Translations under genes and position numbers: made by a program | The notes under the pieces: model-generated | What the model was told of the DNA's origin: nothing | Seen by the model: the letters and a program-made list of their open reading frames with translations, nothing else | Database searches by the model: none | Shown here: in pieces, positions 794 to 9,660 of the stretch | Layout: each line of letters opens with the position of its first letter | Numbering within the stretch: the stretch's first letter is position 1 | Origin: Devosia subaequoris | GTDB lineage: Bacteria > Pseudomonadota > Alphaproteobacteria > Rhizobiales > Devosiaceae | Direction: 5' to 3' | NCBI RefSeq assembly: GCF_014197055.1 | Contig: NZ_JACIEW010000001.1 | Location: 62,001-126,000 of the forward strand | DNA length: 64,000 bases

Positions 794-1933
794 TTATTCT
801 GCGGGCTGTTGCTGGCGTGATTTGGCGCCGGGAGGGCCGGAGCGGCGGGCCGCCGCCGCGATGCGGCGCACGCCTTCCATGATCCCGCCGGGCAGGAAGA
901 TCACGATGACCACGAAGACCAGGCCAAGGGTGAGGTGCCAACCATCACCCACAAACTTGCTGGTCACCTTGACCACGACATCGGCAAGCCCTTCAGGAAG
1001 GAAGCCCCAGAACTGGGTCAGAATGTTGTCGTTGAGTGCCGAGAGAATATTCTCGAAATATTTGATGATCCAGGCACCGATCACCGGGCCGACCAGCGTT
1101 CCGACGCCACCCAGAATGGTCATCAGGACGACTTCGCCCGAGGCGGTCCATTGCATGCGTTCAGCACCGGCCAGCGGGTCAGTGACAGCGAGCAGAGCGC
1201 CAGCCAGACCCGCGTACATGCCCGAGATCACAAAGGCAGACAGGGCATAGGGCCGGGTGTTGAAGCCGGTGAACTGCATGCGCGTCTGGTTAGACTTGAT
1301 GGATTTGAGCATCATGCCGAATGGCGACCCTGCAACGCGCTGGGCAAAGAAGAACGAGAGGATCAGGAACCCGGCACAGAAGTAGAAACCGGCATAGCCG
1401 CCCAATTGCTGGCCCAGTAGGGTCGGGACGGGCTGGCCGACATAGGTCTGGCCGATTGCCGCGTCGAGGACACGGGGGTCGCTCAAAGTGAGCTGCAGGC
1501 CGGTTTCGCCATTGGTGATCGGTGTAAGCACCGAATAGGCGAGGTTGTAGCTCATCTGGGCGAAGGCCAAGGTCAGGATCGAGAAATAAATGCCCGAGCG
1601 CCGTAGCGAGAGGAAGCCGATTACCAGGGCAAACAGGCCCGAGATCAGAACGGCAAAGATCATGGCAGGGATGGCGTCGAGCGTCAGCAGTTTGAACGAC
1701 CAGACCGCAGCGTAGGAGCCGACACCGAAGAAAGCGGCGTGGCCGAAGCTGAGATAACCCGTGAGGCCGAACAGGATGTTAAATCCGACGGCAAAGATGC
1801 CATAGATCATGAAGCGCTGCAGCAGATCCGGATAGCCGGCGCCAAAGGGCGTGAGCCAGATCGGCATGGTCAGCACCACCGCGGTGAAGCCCAGTAGCAG
1901 CAACAGATCGTTGCGGGACATGAAATTGGTCAT
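794..1933 (-). CDS. HAAT-family ABC transporter permease (LivM-like)
   Basis: 379-residue polytopic inner-membrane protein with about ten hydrophobic segments. The region around residues 35-70 carries the LivM signature pattern ([20 protein letters not shown]). It would form the translocation path with the LivH-like partner, whose stop codon lies one base before this ATG, so the two are tightly coupled. The hydrophilic C-terminal tail is rich in Arg, Gln and Pro. LivM and UrtC proteins share this fold, so branched-chain amino acids, urea or short amides are all possible substrates. Confidence 0.87.
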
Positions 1934-1934
1934 G

Positions 1935-2966
1935 TCAGCTCTCCATCACACCGCGGCGGCCCATCAGACCACGCGGGCGAACCAGTAGAATAACAACGGC
2001 AACGAGATAGATGATGATCTGGTCGATGCCGGGAACGATGGCCTTGATCTGGGTCATGGACGCAAACGACTGCAAAATACCCAGGAGGAAGCCGGCGGCG
2101 ACGGCGCCGGGCAAAGAGCCCATGCCTCCTACAACCACCACGACAAAGGAGAGGACCAGGAAGTCCATGCCGAGATGGTAATTGGGCGGGAGCAGGGGCG
2201 TGTACATGACGCCTGCCATGCCTGCGACAACGGCGGCCAGGCCAAACATGATCGTGAAGCGCCGATCGATATTGATGCCCAACAGCCCAACTGTCTCGCG
2301 ATCCGCCATGCCGGCACGTACGACCATGCCGAAGGTGGTGAACTGGAGGAATGCGAACACGCCGCCGATGATGATTGCGGAGAACAGGAAGTAGATCAGG
2401 CGCCAGAGCGGATAGGTTATGACGTTGGCCTGGAAGCCAATCCAGGAGCCGATGTCAGCGGCACCGCGCAGATCGGTCGGCATGGGCTGGGGAATGGGGT
2501 TTGGCCCGAAGACAGATTTGATCACTTCCTGCGCCACGATGGCCAGACCGAAGGTCACCAGGATCTGCTCGGCATGGGGGCGCTTGTAGAAATGCTTGAT
2601 GATGCCGCGTTCCAGCGCAATGCCGACTAGCAGCATGATCGGGATGGTGATGAGGATCGAGAAGGGTACGGAGTAATTGACCAGAACCGCCCCGAAATCC
2701 CCAAACCAAGCCTGCACCAGGGGGGTGCGGATTTCCAGCGGCGCGCCCCAGGGCGATGTCTGGGTTGGGTCGATGGTAACAGTTTCAAGGGTCAGGAACT
2801 GGCGGAACATGACGGCACAGAAGGCACCAAGCATGAACAGGGCGCCATGGGCAAAATTCACGACCCCGAGTGTGCCGAACACCAGGGTAAGGCCAAGGGC
2901 GATCAGCGCGTAAGCAGCGCCTTTGTCGAGCCCGTTGAGAAATTGCAGAAAGATGACTTCGAACAT
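1935..2966 (-). CDS. HAAT-family ABC transporter permease (LivH-like)
   Basis: 343-residue membrane protein with the LivH/UrtB N-terminal pattern [20 protein letters not shown] (residues about 22-41). It has a periplasmic-looking insert near residues 60-100 and the usual C-terminal end MGRRGVMES. The start at 2966 is supported by GGAG seven bases upstream. It lies between the binding-protein gene, from which it is separated by a 160-base spacer with a strong hairpin, and the LivM-like gene. It would be the second half of the transmembrane pore of this importer. Confidence 0.87.
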
Positions 2967-3092
2967 TTGATGCTCCGCTAGTGACGAGGCTCTCTCGATC
3001 CCCGCGCAATGCCGTCATCGGATGTTCCGAAGACCCCGGTCTGCAGATGTGCAGGCGGGAGCACCCGGCGGACCGGGCGCTGGCGGACCTGA

Positions 3093-3118
3093 AGGGGCAA
3101 GGATCGCTCCTTGCCCCT
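3093..3118 (-). terminator. Strong intercistronic hairpin between binding protein and permease genes
   Basis: A perfect 11-bp inverted repeat (3093-3103 and 3108-3118, loop TCGC) lies just after the stop of the binding-protein gene. On the minus strand no T-tract follows, so it is more likely a 3' mRNA-stabilising stem or partial terminator than a full stop. Such stems commonly keep binding-protein mRNA in excess over permease mRNA. Confidence 0.6.
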
Positions 3119-3126
3119 CTATTGGT

Positions 3127-4485
3127 TTAGGCGCAGACGGGTGCCGGCTCTGCCGGACCAAGTTCACCGCCAAAGATCGAAGCGTCGTAGTCGACCGTAT
3201 CGCGTTGGACTTCCTGGACCACGTTGAGAACATCGTATTCGCTGGTAGGGGCATCATTGCCCTGCACAACGAGCACAGACTTCATGCACTGGTGGTCTTC
3301 GGCACGATAGAGCGTGCGGCCATTGCCCATGCCGTCGAACTCGTGGCCTTCCAGCGCCTTGATGACTTCGGGCGGATAGAAAGTGCCAGCGCGTTCCACC
3401 GCATCTGCATAAAGCAGGGTCTGCACGTAGCAGGTATGTGCGGCCTGGGACGGCGGCGAGCCGTAAGCAGCGCCAAACGATTTGGTGAAGGCGACGGAGC
3501 CAGGATCCTGCAGGTTCCAGTGCCAGTTCGAGGTGCCGTAGATGCCCTTGATGTTCTCACCGGCGCCCTTGGCCATCAGTTCGGAGAACAGCGGAACCAC
3601 GATCTGGAAGTCCTTGCCGTTCGCCTGGCGGTCACGCATGCCGAACTGGACCGCCTGAGTCAGCGAGTTCACCATGTCGTTGCCGTAGTGGTTGAGGATC
3701 AGAACGTCGGCACCGGAGTTGAGAACCGGGGTGAGGAACTGCGAGAAGTCACCGGCACCAAGCGGAGTGCGCACCGCCTCTACTGTTTCCCAACCGAGGC
3801 CTTCAGTGGTGTTCTTGATCGACTCTTCCTGGGTCCAGCCCCAGGTGTAGTCAGCGGTCAGGTGGTAGGCGCGGCGATCATTGCCGTAGGCTTCGCTCAG
3901 CACGGGACCTAGTGCCGTGCCGGACTGGTAGGCGTTGAAGAAGTGGCGGAAGCCGTAGCGCCGCTTATCCTTGCCGGTCGTGTCGTTGGAGTGCGTAAGG
4001 CCCGCCATGAAAATGACGCCCATTTCCTGGCAGAGACCCTGCACGGCAATGGCCTCGCCCGAGGACGAACCGCCGGTGATCATGATGGCGCCATCGCGCT
4101 CGATCATGCGGGTGGCACCGGCACGAGCGACGTCGGACTTGGTCTGACTGTCAGAGGTGACATAGCCAACCTTCTTGCCCAGGATGCCATTGCCCTTGAG
4201 CGCCGAGGGGGTCAGCACATTAATCAGGCCGCCGTCACCTTCCCCATTGAGGTGGGCGATGGCCAGTTCATAGGCCTTCTGCTCATCGGCACCTTCTTCC
4301 GCGTAGGCACCGGTCAAAGGCAGGTTGAGGCCAAGGGTGACCGTGTCGCCAGTGGGATTGTTGCAGAACTCCTGCGCCCAGGCCCCTTTGGTGAACATCA
4401 TCGGGGCGACGCCCGTACCGATAATGCCGGCCATACCAGTCTGCAGCAGCCTGCGGCGGGACATCCCGCTCTTCAATATTGTCAT
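3127..4485 (-). CDS. HAAT-family periplasmic substrate-binding protein, Tat-exported
   Basis: 452-residue type I periplasmic binding protein. The N-terminus has a twin-arginine signal (SRRRLLQTG, then a hydrophobic stretch ending GAWAQ near residue 38), so it is probably folded before export. The first mature strand (TVTLGLNLPLTGAYAEEGAD) is typical of LivK/AmiC/UrtA-type proteins, and GGSSSGEA fits the ligand cleft. Start 4485 has AAGGAGGAG upstream. First gene of the transporter operon, divergent from the ScfR-type regulator; the shared region holds palindromes. Ligand unknown: amino acids, short amides or carboxylates are possible. Confidence 0.87.
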   Translation of the reverse strand: MTILKSGMSRRRLLQTGMAGIIGTGVAPMMFTKGAWAQEFCNNPTGDTVTLGLNLPLTGAYAEEGADEQKAYELAIAHLNGEGDGGLINVLTPSALKGNGILGKKVGYVTSDSQTKSDVARAGATRMIERDGAIMITGGSSSGEAIAVQGLCQEMGVIFMAGLTHSNDTTGKDKRRYGFRHFFNAYQSGTALGPVLSEAYGNDRRAYHLTADYTWGWTQEESIKNTTEGLGWETVEAVRTPLGAGDFSQFLTPVLNSGADVLILNHYGNDMVNSLTQAVQFGMRDRQANGKDFQIVVPLFSELMAKGAGENIKGIYGTSNWHWNLQDPGSVAFTKSFGAAYGSPPSQAAHTCYVQTLLYADAVERAGTFYPPEVIKALEGHEFDGMGNGRTLYRAEDHQCMKSVLVVQGNDAPTSEYDVLNVVQEVQRDTVDYDASIFGGELGPAEPAPVCA

Positions 4486-4571
4486 CGATCTCCTCCTTAT
4501 GGCGCGGGGCGACCGATACATTGCCAGTCACTCACCGCCTGCCCAGTATTCGACACATTTGAAAATGACAG

Positions 4572-4650
4572 CAATAGGCTATTGTAATTCCAAGGAAAAT
4601 TTGTAAATTATTGTCCTGACAATATCATGCATCTGTCAATTCATTGACAG
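4572..4650. promoter_or_regulatory. Three palindromes in the divergent promoter region
   Basis: The 191-base region between the binding-protein and regulator genes contains three perfect inverted repeats: CAATAG-G-CTATTG (4572-4584), TATTGTC-CT-GACAATA (4609-4624) and CTGTCAAT-TC-ATTGACAG (4633-4650). The last two share TGTC/GACA half-site elements. Their position suits operators for a dimeric regulator acting on one or both divergent genes. I see no TTTGCAAA-type site of the kind reported for other ScfR proteins, so the bound factor is unknown. Confidence 0.5.
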
Positions 4651-4676: not shown

Positions 4677-6305
4677 ATGCGTGCGCCAATTGGGTTCAGG
4701 ATCAGCAACAGGCGGAAATCGCTCAAGATTTCGCAAGCCGCACTGGCGCGTCTGGTGGGCATATCGCCGAGCTATCTCAATCTGATCGAGAACAACAAAC
4801 GCGACGTGGGCGGTGCACTGCTGCAGCGCGTGGCGCTGCATCTGAACATCGACATCGACGATCTGACCGGGCAGGCCGAACAGAAGCTGCTGCAGGACCT
4901 GGAAGAGGCCTATGCCGAACCGATGGTTGAGTCGCTGCCGTTTCAGCCTGACGAGCGGCGGCAGATGGTGGCGCAGTATCCCGCCAGCGCACAGGCCATG
5001 ACACGATTGCACCGCGCCTATACCGAGGCGGTGGCCAGTGCTGATGCCTTTGCCGACCGGTTGCGCTCGGATCCTTTGCTGAGCCAATTGCTGCACCAGA
5101 TTCTGTCCGGGGTTACCGCAGTGCGCTCGAGCGCTGAAATTCTAGAAGAGGTTACGGACCTCGACGAGGGCGAGCGCGAACGATTCCTCGCCTCTATCGG
5201 ACGCGAAACCCGCAATCTTGGTGCGGTGGCACGCAATCTGATCGGCCACTTCGAGAATGCCAGCGCCAGCCGGCGCAACGTCTCAGCGGTGCGGGAAATC
5301 GATGACTTGCTCATCGAACGAACCAATTATTTCCCGGCGCTGGAAGTCGCAGCAGAGGGGCTGAGGGCGGACGTGGAGCGACACGGGCTGTTCGGGCTGG
5401 AAGGCCTCGTAACGGCGCTTGAGAGACAGTTTGGCGTGCGTATCACCATTGGAGGGGCGCCGCCATCTGGGCCAGCGGACTTTCCGGGACAGTATCGCTA
5501 TTTTCCCGAGATCGCGACCATGTGGTTGCAGGGCGCCACGACACTGGCCACGCGGCAGTTTCAGCTCGCCCGGCTTTATGGAGAGCTGGCCGCCGGATCG
5601 GTGATCGAGACGGAACTGGGTGAGGCTGCCCTGGCGTCTCCCGCGGCCCTGCGACTGGCGCGGCGGGCGCTTGGATCTTATCTGGCCGGCGCTATGGTGT
5701 TCCCGTATTCCGGTTTTTTGGGGCAGGCGGAGGCGACGGGATATGACATCGATCAGCTTCGCCAGACTTACTATGCCAGCTATGAGCAGGTGGCTCATCG
5801 GCTGGTCTCGCTTCGCCGCCCCGGTGAAGAGGGCGTGCCGTTCGGTTTTCTGCGCTCGGACCCGGCCGGCCGGCTCACCAAACACTTTCCGCTTCCGGGA
5901 TTGTTGCTGCCCTATTCGGGCCATGCCTGCCCGCTCTGGGCAATCTATGGCGCGTTTCGAACGCCTGACATGCCGGTGCGCCAGGTGGTGCGGTTCTCGG
6001 ATGGCTCGCGCTATCTTTTTGTTGCACGCACGGTACAGCGCCGGGCGGCGGCATTTCACGAGCCACCTGTGATGGCCTCGGTCATGTTGGCCTGCAACGT
6101 GCTGCACGCGGATAGAACGGTATACGCGCAAGGCCTGGACCTGGGTGACACCGGCGCTGATGTCGAGGTCGGCCCCACCTGCCGGCTCTGTACGCGTTCG
6201 AATTGCGCCAGCAGGCAGGAAGAGCCTCTGGCACCGGGCCCGGGGCGCGAAAATCTGCGTACGGCCTTGGTCCCAAATGGTTTTGCCCTTGGCGAGGGCG
6301 GGTGA
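4677..6305 (+). CDS. ScfR-family (short-chain fatty acyl) transcriptional regulator with HisKA-like insert
   Basis: 542-residue predicted cytoplasmic regulator. An XRE/Cro helix-turn-helix fills residues about 10-65. Residues 245-430 resemble the IrrE/M78 peptidase fold, but the HExxH position reads RLYGE (299-303), so it is not a peptidase. The C-terminus has the ScfR features GHACPLW (about 415-421) and a Cys cluster (502, 505, 510). Between HTH and sensor region, residues 136-190 resemble a HisKA hairpin, with His140 at the phosphoacceptor position. ScfR relatives I know of are about 470 residues, so the insert accounts for the extra length. ATG 4677 has GGGAGGGAAGG upstream; an in-frame TTG at 4644 is less likely. 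Relatives control propionyl-CoA, acetate or glyoxylate-cycle genes. Confidence 0.85.
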   Translation: MRAPIGFRISNRRKSLKISQAALARLVGISPSYLNLIENNKRDVGGALLQRVALHLNIDIDDLTGQAEQKLLQDLEEAYAEPMVESLPFQPDERRQMVAQYPASAQAMTRLHRAYTEAVASADAFADRLRSDPLLSQLLHQILSGVTAVRSSAEILEEVTDLDEGERERFLASIGRETRNLGAVARNLIGHFENASASRRNVSAVREIDDLLIERTNYFPALEVAAEGLRADVERHGLFGLEGLVTALERQFGVRITIGGAPPSGPADFPGQYRYFPEIATMWLQGATTLATRQFQLARLYGELAAGSVIETELGEAALASPAALRLARRALGSYLAGAMVFPYSGFLGQAEATGYDIDQLRQTYYASYEQVAHRLVSLRRPGEEGVPFGFLRSDPAGRLTKHFPLPGLLLPYSGHACPLWAIYGAFRTPDMPVRQVVRFSDGSRYLFVARTVQRRAAAFHEPPVMASVMLACNVLHADRTVYAQGLDLGDTGADVEVGPTCRLCTRSNCASRQEEPLAPGPGRENLRTALVPNGFALGEGG

Positions 6306-6345: not shown

Positions 6346-6744
6346 ATGATGGGGGGAGTATTGGCTATCGACATTTTGATTGCCGAAGATGAGCCTAGCA
6401 TTCTGGAATCGCTCGACTTCATTTTGCGCCGAGCAGGATGGAGTGTGGAATCGGTCACCGATGGCGAAGCCGTGCTTGAGCGCGTGCGCCGCGAGCTGCC
6501 GCGCATCCTGGTGCTCGATATCATGCTGCCCAAGCGCAGTGGCTTCGACGTCCTCAAGCAATTGCGTTCCGAAGAGCCGACCAAGATCCTGCCGGTCTTG
6601 ATCCTGACCGCCAAGGGACAACAGCAAGACAGGCGCATTGCCGAGGAATTGGGCGCCGATGGTTTCGTGACCAAGCCCTATTCCAACGCGGAAGTGGTTG
6701 GAGCAGTACGCCAATTGCTGGGTGATGATGACCGCGCGGCGTAA
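6346..6744 (+). CDS. Receiver-only response regulator
   Basis: 132-residue CheY-like receiver with no output domain. Acidic pocket Glu14-Asp15, phosphoacceptor Asp58 (VLDIMLP), Thr88 and Lys110 (VTKPY) are all present, so it should be phosphorylatable. Two adjacent ATGs at 6346 and 6349 follow GAGGGGAG; homology starts at residue 7. It lies 40 bases after the ScfR-type gene and overlaps the next gene by 20 bases. The SLC5-histidine kinase 217 bases downstream is the obvious phosphodonor. With no DNA-binding domain it must act by protein contact or as a relay; the HisKA-like segment of the upstream regulator is a candidate partner (inference). Confidence 0.88.
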   Translation: MMGGVLAIDILIAEDEPSILESLDFILRRAGWSVESVTDGEAVLERVRRELPRILVLDIMLPKRSGFDVLKQLRSEEPTKILPVLILTAKGQQQDRRIAEELGADGFVTKPYSNAEVVGAVRQLLGDDDRAA

Positions 6745-6961
6745 GCTGGAGAGCGGGGTTTTCGTCTTTGCGATGTTCGGTGCGCTGCTGATTCTTCCGC
6801 CCCTGGTCTATATCTTCAATCATCCGATCCTGTTTTTCGGGATCCCACAGATCGTCGTCTATCTGTTCGGGGTCTGGGCGCTGATGGTTATCGGAGCCGG
6901 CGTCCTGACGCATTATCTGCCCCACGCCTCGGATGAGGATGGCCACGAAGGGGACGAGTGA
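6725..6961 (+). CDS. Small two-helix membrane protein ahead of the SLC5-kinase (possible symporter small subunit)
   Basis: 78 residues: a basic N-terminus (TARRKLESG), two hydrophobic helices (about residues 12-34 and 38-62), and a short acidic His-containing tail (DEDGHEGDE). The arrangement resembles the small DUF485/DUF4212 proteins encoded before SLC5-type symporters, such as YjcH before the acetate permease ActP, but I cannot confirm family membership by eye. It starts inside the receiver gene, and its stop overlaps the ATG of the SLC5-kinase gene, so the three are probably translationally coupled. Confidence 0.7.
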   Translation: MMTARRKLESGVFVFAMFGALLILPPLVYIFNHPILFFGIPQIVVYLFGVWALMVIGAGVLTHYLPHASDEDGHEGDE

Positions 6962-9660
6962 TGCTTTCGGCCGACTTCGTCATAATCACCGCAATCGTCT
7001 ATGTGGGGCTGCTGTTCGTCCTGGCCTATTTCGGGGACCGGCACACGCGCGCCAACAAGTCGTCATTCCTGCGCTCGCCTGCTGTCTATACGCTCTCGAT
7101 CTCGGTCTATTGCACGAGTTGGACCTTCTATGGCGCCGTCGGCAATGCCGCGCGCGGGGGGCTCGAGTTCCTGACCATCTATCTGGGGCCCACCATCGTT
7201 TTTGTCGGCTGGTGGTTCATATTGCGCAAGCTGGTCCGGATTGGCCGGATGCAGGCTATTACGTCGATCGCGGATTTATTGTCTTCGCGCTATGGCAAGT
7301 CGAGCCGGCTGGCCGTGCTGGTGACACTGATCGCCGTTATTGGCATCACCCCCTACATCGCCTTGCAGCTCAAGGCGATTACCGCCTCCATCCAGGTGGT
7401 TGCGGAATCGGCTGAGGGCGCGCGGGGCAGTCTTGTCGGCGTTGATGACGGTGCCCTGGCGTTCGGTATTGCTGCGGGCATGGCGCTGTTCACTATTCTG
7501 TTCGGCACGCGCAATGTCGACGCCAAGGAGCAGCACCATGGAGTGGTTGCTGCCATTGCGTTCGAGGCGGTGGTCAAGCTTGCGGCGCTACTGGCGGTCG
7601 GTGTGTTCGTCACCTTCGGTTTGGGTGGGGGCTTCGAATCGATCTATCGCGGCGCGGAGGCGGCAGGCATTGCGATCTATGAAGACGACCCCTTCGGCCC
7701 ACGCTGGGTGGCGATGACGGTGCTGTCGGCCGCTGCGATCATCTGCCTGCCGCGCCAGTTCCAGATCACCGTGGTCGAAAACGCCAACGAGGATCATCTG
7801 CGCGTCGCAGGCTGGGCCTTCCCCGCCTATTTGCTGCTGATGAGCGTCTTCACGTTGCCCATTGCGCTTTACGGCATGACGGTGATGCCGGAAGGTGCCA
7901 ATCCGGACATGTTTGTGCTGACGCTGCCGCTGTCCGAAGGGCAATCTGGCATTGCGTTGCTTGCCTTTATCGGTGGTTTTTCATCCGCTACATCAATGAT
8001 TATCGTGGCCTCGATTGCCTTGTCGATCATGGTGTCGAACCACATCATCATGCCGATCATCCTACGCTCGTCCAATGTCGGGCAGGGCGACGGGCAGGGT
8101 GTTCGGCGCTTGCTGCTATTGAGCCGACGGGTGTCGATCGGAGTGATCCTGACCTTGGGGTTTCTCTACTTTTCGCTGACCGGCGACGATGCTTTGGCGC
8201 CGATCGGGCTCATTTCGTTTGCCGGTGTCGCGCAGTTTCTGCCGGCCATCCTGGCGGGCCTCTACTGGCGCGAAGCGGCGCAGCGCGGGGCGGCGAGCGG
8301 CATTCTGATCGGGTTTGTCGTGTGGGCCTGGACCATGTTCCTGCCCAGTTTCGAAACGGTGCTGCCATGGGTGTCCGATGTCATGGAAAGCGGACCCTGG
8401 AGCATTGGGTTCCTGCGACCGGAGAATCTGTTCGGTCTGGATGGACTCGATCCGCTGGTGCACTCGGTGTTCTGGAGCCTGCTGCTCAACAGCGTTTTTC
8501 TGGTGCTGGGATCGCTAGTGTCCAGCCAATCGGCGCTCGAGCGTATCCAGGCTGCAGCCTTTGTGGATGTGTTCCGCCGCCGTCCTTTCGCCCATCGCGG
8601 TTTCATGCCCGGGTCTGCGACAGCGAATGATCTATATTTTGTTGCCGAGCGGGTGCTGGGCGAAAAACGGGCGGCGACACTGTTCGAGACTGCGGCGCAG
8701 GAGCGTGGTGTCGAACCGGCGATGCTGGAGCCGACGCCGGAGTTTATTTCCAAATTGGAGCGCGAACTGGCTGGATCCATCGGCTCGGCCTCGGCGCATG
8801 TGATGCTGGCAAAAGTGGTGGCCGGCGGCGACGTGTCGCTCGAAGAGATGATGCAGATGGCCGATGAAACCCAGCAGGTCATCGAGTACTCTCAGGAACT
8901 GGAAAGAACTTCGGCGGAGTTGCGGGTCACAGCTCGCAAGCTGGAAGATGCCAATGCGCAACTCCGCGAGCTGGACAGCCAGAAGGACGAGTTTCTTAGC
9001 CAGGTGAGCCACGAGGTGCGGACGCCGATGACCTCGATCCGTTCGTTCTCCGAAATCCTGATGGAGCCCGGGGAACTCAATGACGGACAGCGACAGCGCT
9101 TCATCTCCACGATCCACAATGAGAGCCTGCGCCTGACCAGGCTACTCGATGAAATTCTGGACCTTAGCGCGCTCGAACGGGGAGAACGAAGCTGGCAGAA
9201 TGCGCCGGTAAATGCGGAAGAGGCTCTGGATCGTGCCGTCGCGGTCTGCGACGCGTTGCTGCGGCAGAAGGGCATGCGCGTGGAGTTTGGCGAGCGGGCG
9301 CATACCACCATGGTCGACGGGGACAGCGACCGTCTCTGTCAGGTGTTCATCAACCTGATTTCCAATGCAGTTAAATACAATGATGCCGACCATCCCATGG
9401 TTCGCGTGAGTTCAACTGTGCGTGCGGGGCAGTTCGTGGTTGATGTGGCAGATAACGGTCCGGGAATCTCCAAGACCGATCGAAAGCTCATCTTCGAGAA
9501 ATTCTGGCGCGGCGTTGAAGGCGGCGGGGATCAGGGCGGTGCGGGCCTCGGCCTGGCGATCAGCAGGCAGATCGTAGCCAGGATGAATGGCACGCTGGAA
9601 CTGGTGCCCGGGCCCTTGCCAGGGGCGTGTTTCCGAGTGCGGTTGCCGGTGATCAAATAG
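6961..9660 (+). CDS. SLC5 (sodium:solute symporter)-STAC-histidine kinase fusion (CrbS/CbrA type)
   Basis: 899-residue sensor kinase. Residues about 1-525 form a 12-13-helix sodium:solute symporter module. A region near 560-655 fits the STAC linker described for SLC5-coupled kinases, followed by a coiled coil (about 640-675). HisKA has phosphoacceptor His684 (SQVSHEVRTP). The ATPase part has an N box (about 797-807), a DNGPGIS motif (about 831) and a glycine-rich GGAGLGLAIS. ATG 6961 has AAGGGGA upstream. Relatives CrbS and CbrA couple solute transport to control of acetyl-CoA synthetase or carbon-nitrogen balance; the solute here is unknown. Receiver and ScfR-type genes upstream suggest a small-carboxylate signal (inference). 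Confidence 0.9.
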   Translation: MLSADFVIITAIVYVGLLFVLAYFGDRHTRANKSSFLRSPAVYTLSISVYCTSWTFYGAVGNAARGGLEFLTIYLGPTIVFVGWWFILRKLVRIGRMQAITSIADLLSSRYGKSSRLAVLVTLIAVIGITPYIALQLKAITASIQVVAESAEGARGSLVGVDDGALAFGIAAGMALFTILFGTRNVDAKEQHHGVVAAIAFEAVVKLAALLAVGVFVTFGLGGGFESIYRGAEAAGIAIYEDDPFGPRWVAMTVLSAAAIICLPRQFQITVVENANEDHLRVAGWAFPAYLLLMSVFTLPIALYGMTVMPEGANPDMFVLTLPLSEGQSGIALLAFIGGFSSATSMIIVASIALSIMVSNHIIMPIILRSSNVGQGDGQGVRRLLLLSRRVSIGVILTLGFLYFSLTGDDALAPIGLISFAGVAQFLPAILAGLYWREAAQRGAASGILIGFVVWAWTMFLPSFETVLPWVSDVMESGPWSIGFLRPENLFGLDGLDPLVHSVFWSLLLNSVFLVLGSLVSSQSALERIQAAAFVDVFRRRPFAHRGFMPGSATANDLYFVAERVLGEKRAATLFETAAQERGVEPAMLEPTPEFISKLERELAGSIGSASAHVMLAKVVAGGDVSLEEMMQMADETQQVIEYSQELERTSAELRVTARKLEDANAQLRELDSQKDEFLSQVSHEVRTPMTSIRSFSEILMEPGELNDGQRQRFISTIHNESLRLTRLLDEILDLSALERGERSWQNAPVNAEEALDRAVAVCDALLRQKGMRVEFGERAHTTMVDGDSDRLCQVFINLISNAVKYNDADHPMVRVSSTVRAGQFVVDVADNGPGISKTDRKLIFEKFWRGVEGGGDQGGAGLGLAISRQIVARMNGTLELVPGPLPGACFRVRLPVIK

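Follow-up and report, generated by a model that had tools for sequence, protein, structure and literature searches.

Many bacterial receivers possess no output domain, and the partners of such receivers are hard to find. In HPt, ChpT, and Spo0B, a DHp-like or helical module meets a receiver without kinase activity, and the histidine of the module is required. Receivers can also be read by a degraded DHp. In Caulobacter, DivL reads DivK~P without phosphotransfer, and the phosphoacceptor position is dispensable for binding (PMC4211667). SLC5/STAC kinases such as those of CrbS/CrbR, RpuS/RpuR, and CbrA/CbrB, in which an SLC5-type transporter domain is fused to a histidine kinase, are linked to carbon-source use. 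In S. fredii, the partners of these kinases are response regulators of the LuxR family that themselves carry a DNA-binding domain (PMC9100948). The ScfR regulators MtPrpR, RamB, and PccR contain HTH, IrrE-like, and ScfRs domains, and MtPrpR binds acyl-CoA and a [4Fe4S] cluster through a C-X2-C-X4-C motif (PMC6765138). For Paracoccus, one paper mentions in passing that an ScfR-like gene (Pden_1785 or Pden_2985) neighbors a two-component system, and does not study it (PMC10370305). Among the matches listed in searches of an open-access library, which leaves out most subscription papers, no description was found of a DHp within an ScfR regulator or within the exonuclease treated below.

The locus of interest is located in the window, the whole 64,000-nucleotide stretch of Devosia subaequoris DNA that was analyzed; related loci of D. 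indica and D. marina are 94% and 95% identical to it, respectively. It encodes a 542-aa ScfR-type regulator (4677..6305, plus strand) with an HTH domain (HTH_3 in Pfam) at about residues 1-70, an inserted hairpin at residues 133-198 (5073..5270, plus strand), an IrrE/M78-like domain at about 273-376, and the C-terminal ScfRs domain at 379-518. Residues 179-514 matched MtPrpR with E = 1.5e-46. Downstream on the same strand are a receiver-only response regulator (6346..6744; Pfam Response_reg, E = 1.1e-25), a short hydrophobic ORF without a Pfam match (6728..6961; 77 aa from a putative ATG start at 6728), and a 900-aa protein (6958..9660) composed of an SLC5-type N-terminal transporter domain and, by Pfam, HisKA and HATPase_c domains, which is the composition of an SLC5-histidine kinase of the CbrA/CrbS type. 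Residues 8-464 of this SLC5-kinase matched PDB 10ed_A with E = 9.4e-70; the entry is titled only “histidine kinase,” and we take it to be CbrA. Pfam SSF gave no match, and no model of the STAC domain was among the Pfam or NCBIfam results. In contrast to the S. fredii partners, the receiver lacks an output domain, and DNA-binding regulator and receiver are encoded as two proteins. Divergently oriented genes for a Liv-type ABC transporter (794..4521, minus strand; Pfam) encode a substrate-binding protein (3127-4521) and two permeases (1935-2966 and 794-1933). The divergent intergenic region contains the inverted repeat CTGTCAA-TTCA-TTGACAG at 4633-4650, 5′ of the regulator start, as a possible operator.

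On the ligand side, the domains of the window regulator are those of the ScfR/IsaR regulators, and its Cys418 plus C502-X2-C505-X4-C510 match the [4Fe4S] ligand pattern given for MtPrpR (PMC6765138). By likeness to MtPrpR, the regulator is probably an acyl-CoA sensor with a predicted [4Fe4S] cluster. What sets it apart from the ordinary ScfRs examined is the hairpin and the neighboring genes for the receiver and the SLC5-kinase, both of which these ScfRs lack.

The core of the hairpin (residues 136-190; 5082-5246, plus strand) had been aligned without gaps to the HisKA domain of the SLC5-kinase (8998-9162) in a preliminary description made from the sequence, and the hand count of about 18 identities in 55 positions given there was confirmed as 18/55. 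BLASTP of the hairpin against the kinase segment yielded 17/43 identical residues, with E = 3e-12 for the single comparison. The local score of 97 has to be compared with a maximum of 47 in 2000 segment shuffles and with 54 for the second-ranked HisKA domain among the 28 that were found in this genome. A profile of the inserts ranked the linked SLC5-kinase, with its HisKA/DHp at 8980..9183 (plus strand, Pfam), first at 55.6 bits and the runner-up among these 28 domains at 17.4 bits; without the Devosia rows, the values were 54.8 and 17.3 bits. When the 35-member insert profile was aligned by hhalign to seven other HisKA domains of the genome, the probability was 95.5% (E = 1.4e-8), and a control profile from another helical part of these regulators reached 0.3%. 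Homology to HisKA/DHp (PF00512) extends over the hairpin at the profile level, so that the similarity for which the preliminary description had proposed a profile comparison was indeed present. A chance or generic coiled-coil resemblance was ruled out by the shuffles, the ranking of the 28 HisKA domains, and the control segment, and the likeness of the hairpin to the kinase DHp is real and far above chance.

Similarity to HisKA was also seen independently of the neighboring kinase. Pfam HisKA hit the window regulator at the right place with E = 0.14 and 12.6 bits, below the cut-off of 26.9 bits, and PF00512 matched 26 of the 35 profile members at E <= 1, the best with 1.1e-6. The NCBIfam model of the CreC kinase matched residues 136-190 with E = 8.9e-5, far below the whole-protein cut-off of this model. 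The structure model of the full-length regulator was poor (mean pLDDT 46.7); at low confidence, modeling predicted helices at residues 133-158 and 164-198. The model of the hairpin segment (pLDDT 63.8) had no fold match at E <= 0.001, and in the list of matches without significance, the DHp domains of HK853 and SrrAB were on ranks 2 and 4, with syntaxin 6 on top. Both models were of too low quality to serve as the fold comparison proposed in the preliminary description.

All six ordinary ScfRs that were aligned, including two paralogues that this genome encodes (loci L073 and L074; 469 and 470 aa), had a gap at the position of the hairpin, in agreement with the earlier suggestion that it is an inserted module. 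None of the 20 ordinary ScfRs examined by neighborhood matched the segment, and none of these 20 neighborhoods, in stretches of 6 to 16 kb, contained the pair of a receiver-only protein and an SLC5-kinase. The preliminary description had named as a refuting case that most ScfRs share the segment without linked kinases; the ordinary ScfRs examined had neither the segment nor a linked kinase. A segment common to all ScfRs was rejected for those examined (6 aligned, 20 by neighborhood). Other two-component genes were near 3 of the 20 controls: a regulator of 236 aa at L166 and longer regulators at L177 and L178.

Within the order, 199 genomes were searched and 110 gave any match. The relatives were of two kinds, those with full-length matches or matches of the N-terminal ~230 residues and ordinary ScfRs, in which the match covered chiefly the last 310 residues. 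Searching 385 genomes of the class with the insert profile gave 60 genomes with a match; the insert was in a regulator-length frame in 45 of them, the own genome included, and 43 of 43 fetched frames carried the ScfR domain. Of 398 genomes of the phylum searched in the same way, 62 had a match, 28 of these genomes were outside the class and contained kinase-length frames only, and the inserted regulators among the matches listed were all within the same class. The hairpin marks a subfamily of alphaproteobacterial ScfR regulators, mostly of one clade. In the hairpin tree, which is approximate with its ~61 columns, a group of 63 taxa (59 de-replicated regulators, three kinases, and one other HisKA domain) had an ultrafast bootstrap of 93, the grouping of the 59 regulators with the other HisKA domain had 28, and the largest purely regulator clade, 54 regulators, had 86. 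The tree was little informative about other kinases because the length filter retained just 10 of the 28 genomic HisKA domains. These ~61 columns suggest a single origin of the inserts. Recent copying of the neighboring kinase in Devosia was ruled out, since the inserts form one group and the Devosia-free profile ranks the kinase equally high. In three Devosia comparisons, the dN/dS of the insert (0.04-0.06) was similar to that of the ScfR domain (0.04-0.08), indicating purifying selection.

Variants of the inserted regulator were also seen. Those of L055, L154, L155, and L247 were shorter (431-439 aa), and the two that were scanned, L055 and L247, had HTH and ScfRs domains by Pfam and no detectable IrrE/M78-like domain. 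The regulator at L248:7591-8980:- seemed to be split into one ORF with the HTH and the hairpin and another with the ScfR part, due to a break or a sequencing error.

For the analysis of the neighborhoods, 78 inserted regulators were used. Of these, 35 came from the window, the scan of the genome contig, and the order search; the class search contributed 43 of its 45, with G456 and the own copy omitted. In 62 of the 78, the regulator was followed directly and on the same strand by genes for a receiver-only response regulator and an SLC5-kinase; 60 of these were found by the automatic rule and L049 and L065, with the receivers in long overlapping ORFs, were added. Compared to 0 of 20 controls, this gave a Fisher p of 2e-11 with relatedness ignored. 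In L066, the contig ended after the receiver. The remaining 15 of 78 loci were not contiguous: the neighbors were on the opposite strand (L158 and L162), the pair was about 10 kb away (L125, L126, L161, and L163), an interval of about 4 kb was present (L146), a kinase occurred without a detected receiver (L122) or a receiver without a kinase in the examined stretch (L106 and L116), the contig was short (L127), or the examined stretch contained no partner (L117, L152, L153, and L164). In the genomes of L241/L242 and L244/L245, the receiver and SLC5-kinase genes were together and the inserted regulator was located elsewhere on the contig. The columns of the phospho-Asp and the catalytic Lys were kept in 98 of 98 related receivers.

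Covariation was evaluated with 60 of 66 pairs left after removal of near-duplicates. For insert and receiver, the share of the top 60 pairs located in the chosen receiver band was 0.22, compared to a null of 0.09 (sd 0.04) and a uniform expectation of 0.18; it was 0.27 for kinase and receiver. The pairs named beforehand were near background, with mean z values of 0.23 and 0.50.

Residues were counted in 100 inserts, the 78 above plus 22 distinct new ones of the 32 aligned from the phylum search, whose regulators were used for these counts only, apart from six loci in the neighbor counts given below; 80 SLC5-kinase DHps aligned in the same register served for comparison. The His, the following Glu, Arg at H+3, and Pro at H+5 were each present in 80 of 80 SLC5-kinases, and the four together in none of the 100 inserts. 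Arg H+3 was kept in 8 of 100, and in the window protein Gly145 takes the place of the classical proline, the lack of which had been pointed out before. Glu follows the His in 22 of 100 inserts and Glu or Asp in 28; since Glu stands here in 14 of the 22 phylum-search inserts, the loss of the acid is not uniform. The inserts do not share the invariant set of residues of a catalytic HisKA phosphoacceptor site, and the regulator gave no HATPase match in Pfam at E <= 10 that would represent an ATPase (CA) domain. In contrast, Arg H+10 (91/100), Ser H+11 (94/100), Ile H+15 (100/100), Thr, Ala, or Ser at H+7, and Ala, Ser, or Thr at H+8 were kept. In helix 2, Arg-Phe and Glu-Ser were mostly kept, and its end had diverged. 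The HK853 residues A268, A271, and T275, which are among the positions named in the PDB title of the rewired HK853-RR468 structure, correspond to H+8, H+11, and H+15 in our own mapping. Much of the predicted receiver-facing helix is retained in the inserts.

The lack of a complete autophosphorylation residue set in any insert bears on the possibility of a direct contact, in which the hairpin would pair with the DHp of the kinase or receive its phosphoryl group straight from the kinase, with no part for the receiver. That this kinase contains the HisKA domain of the genome closest to the insert, and that the genes are usually in one run, would agree with such a contact. It is nevertheless very improbable, considering also that a receiver with an intact active site stays beside the kinase even when the regulator is encoded elsewhere (L242 and L245).

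The His of the kinase phosphoacceptor site aligns with His140 (codon at 5094..5096, plus strand), as the preliminary description had stated; its designation as a phosphoacceptor, however, is not established for the insert: most inserts lack the residues that flank the His in the kinase, and 9 of 100 have another residue in place of the His. It was kept in 91 of 100 inserts (69 of the 78 plus 22 of the 22 further distinct ones). The exchanges were to Leu in L059, a relative of the same genus, and to Gln in L070, both with intact operons. The other seven were all in non-contiguous loci (L125, L126, L152, L153, L161, L163, and L164), five of them (L125, L126, L161, L163, and L164) without Arg H+10 as well. 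His loss in 7 of 15 non-contiguous compared to 2 of 63 linked regulators corresponds to a p value of 7e-5, relatedness being ignored. Its concentration in regulators that are not adjacent to the pair means that the His probably matters in most of them, and it seems to be important in most members yet not indispensable.

This distribution of the His, the joint loss of Arg H+10 in five members, and the Glu or Asp behind the His in part of the inserts would agree with a phosphorelay in which the receiver passes its phosphoryl group to His140, the hairpin being an HPt-like acceptor and the regulator being switched by phosphorylation of the His. The same data hint at a chemical role and speak to this extent against a mere docking site. 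The intact operons with Leu or Gln instead of His, the loss of the kinase's His-flanking residues from most inserts, and the lack of the His in all of the exonuclease segments described below make this phosphorelay unlikely. In HPt, ChpT, and Spo0B, by comparison, the His is needed; the inserts do not all have it, and their module forms part of a transcription factor.

A second protein with such a module was found at receiver and SLC5-kinase loci. Many of these loci lack an inserted regulator and have in its place a long ORF (679-900 aa, putative starts), in which PAS and DEDDh exonuclease domains were detected in the cases scanned. This applied to 7 of 9 loci of the class (L128-L136) and 7 of 9 loci fetched from outside it (L231-L234, L236-L238). 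Examples are L131:4151-6229:+, L135:4164-6266:+, and L236:2999-5113:+; with 16 more, they are located between or beside the receiver and the SLC5-kinase. In L158, L160, and L162, an inserted regulator and an exonuclease-type ORF were both present. Seventeen of these 19 ORFs contained a degraded DHp between the PAS and exonuclease domains; L158 and L162 had no segment in the examined stretch. By hhalign, the 17 segments aligned to HisKA with 95.7% and to the regulator insert with 97.6% (E = 3e-12). Single exonuclease proteins matched Pfam HisKA with E values of 0.006-0.01 (L236 and L131) or not at all (L135, L240, and L231). The best HisKA match of the segment in the own genome was again that of the SLC5-kinase (42.3 bits; next, 34.5 bits). 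The phosphoacceptor column had no His in 17 of 17 segments, and Arg H+3 was kept in 17 of 17. A degraded DHp in two unlike proteins beside the same kind of receiver would be well explained if the hairpin binds the receiver, and the exonuclease would be an output of the two-component locus.

Alternatively, the hairpin may be a four-helix-bundle module that only dimerizes the regulator, with the receiver not being involved. DHp domains generally dimerize, and 15 of 78 regulators are not adjacent to the pair, though the partners are in some cases nearby or elsewhere in the genome. MtPrpR, an ScfR relative, acts as a tetramer (PMC6765138). Dimerization alone would account neither for the linkage nor for the fact that the hairpin resembles the linked kinase in particular, nor for a module of this type in an exonuclease beside the same kind of receiver, and is regarded as quite improbable.

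Some short ORFs (putative genes) contained little beyond a DHp hairpin with an intact HELRTPL-type motif: L137:6050-6283:- (77 aa), L139:5915-6178:- (87 aa), L140:6292-6765:+, and L251-L261. Hairpin matches in frames of <=323 aa occurred in 11 of 31 genomes of one family. A 163-aa ORF at L138:5546-6037:- ends in a HisKA-like hairpin (Pfam E = 8e-9), and its genome (G381) also contains an inserted regulator.

The hairpin is thus read, as the reasonably probable interpretation, as a pseudo-DHp that has lost the function in kinase catalysis and serves as a docking module for the orphan receiver. The reasons are the homology of the hairpin, its linkage to the receiver and the kinase, the intact receivers, the kept receiver-facing residues, and the dN/dS of the insert, and in addition the His-free DHp in the exonuclease at equivalent loci, the Leu in L059, and the precedent of DivL. 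Docking of a receiver had been one of the roles considered in the preliminary description and gained support from homology, linkage, and the retained helix, while the part concerning a phosphoacceptor is unproven. Against docking, the similarity between hairpin and kinase DHp could stem from common descent alone.

Following this docking interpretation, a DHp most like that of the SLC5-kinase, and probably derived from it, would have entered an ancestor of the ScfR regulator, behind the HTH and ahead of the part that senses acyl-CoA. The SLC5-kinase would sense an external substrate, probably a short-chain carboxylate, and phosphorylate the receiver, which may then dock in its phosphorylated form on the hairpin of the regulator as it would on the DHp of the kinase. 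Docking together with acyl-CoA binding in the ScfR domain may change the assembly or the DNA binding of the regulator. Candidate targets are the divergent ABC transporter operon and, where present, acetyl-CoA synthetase. Of 84 loci with an inserted regulator, 77 contained an ORF resembling the Liv substrate-binding protein, and 12 (stricter cut) or 13 (looser cut) contained acetyl-CoA synthetase; the upstream stretch of the own genome that was searched contained no acetyl-CoA synthetase. A two-input control of the uptake and activation of short-chain acids, with predicted substrate and targets, is the likely role of the regulator, which probably combines an outside signal through kinase and receiver with an inside signal through acyl-CoA.

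The closest precedent is DivL, with the likeness that a degraded DHp would be the site at which a phosphorylated receiver gives its input. In DivL, this DHp belongs to a complete pseudokinase that also has PAS and ATPase domains, whereas a lone hairpin in a DNA-binding acyl-CoA regulator is found here, and the phosphoacceptor His replaced in DivL is present as His140 in the window protein. The docking model predicts a phospho-dependent binding of receiver and hairpin for which His140 is dispensable. Whether the pseudo-DHp is a general output adaptor, such that CheY-like receivers of SLC5-kinases dock on hairpins grafted into an acyl-CoA regulator and a PAS-exonuclease, with the stand-alone mini-DHps maybe as a third kind in one family, is evenly balanced. 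If this were true, the receiver would have, as its output interface, a copy of its own input kinase, and the usual flow from kinase to receiver would be reversed. A kinase-derived hairpin in an effector would be a readable sequence mark for the partners of receivers without an output domain. Such a hairpin would further illustrate how a two-component system became connected to a one-component sensor of metabolites, so that outside and inside signals are combined, and the DivL principle, so far one of pseudokinases, would then apply to transcription factors as well.
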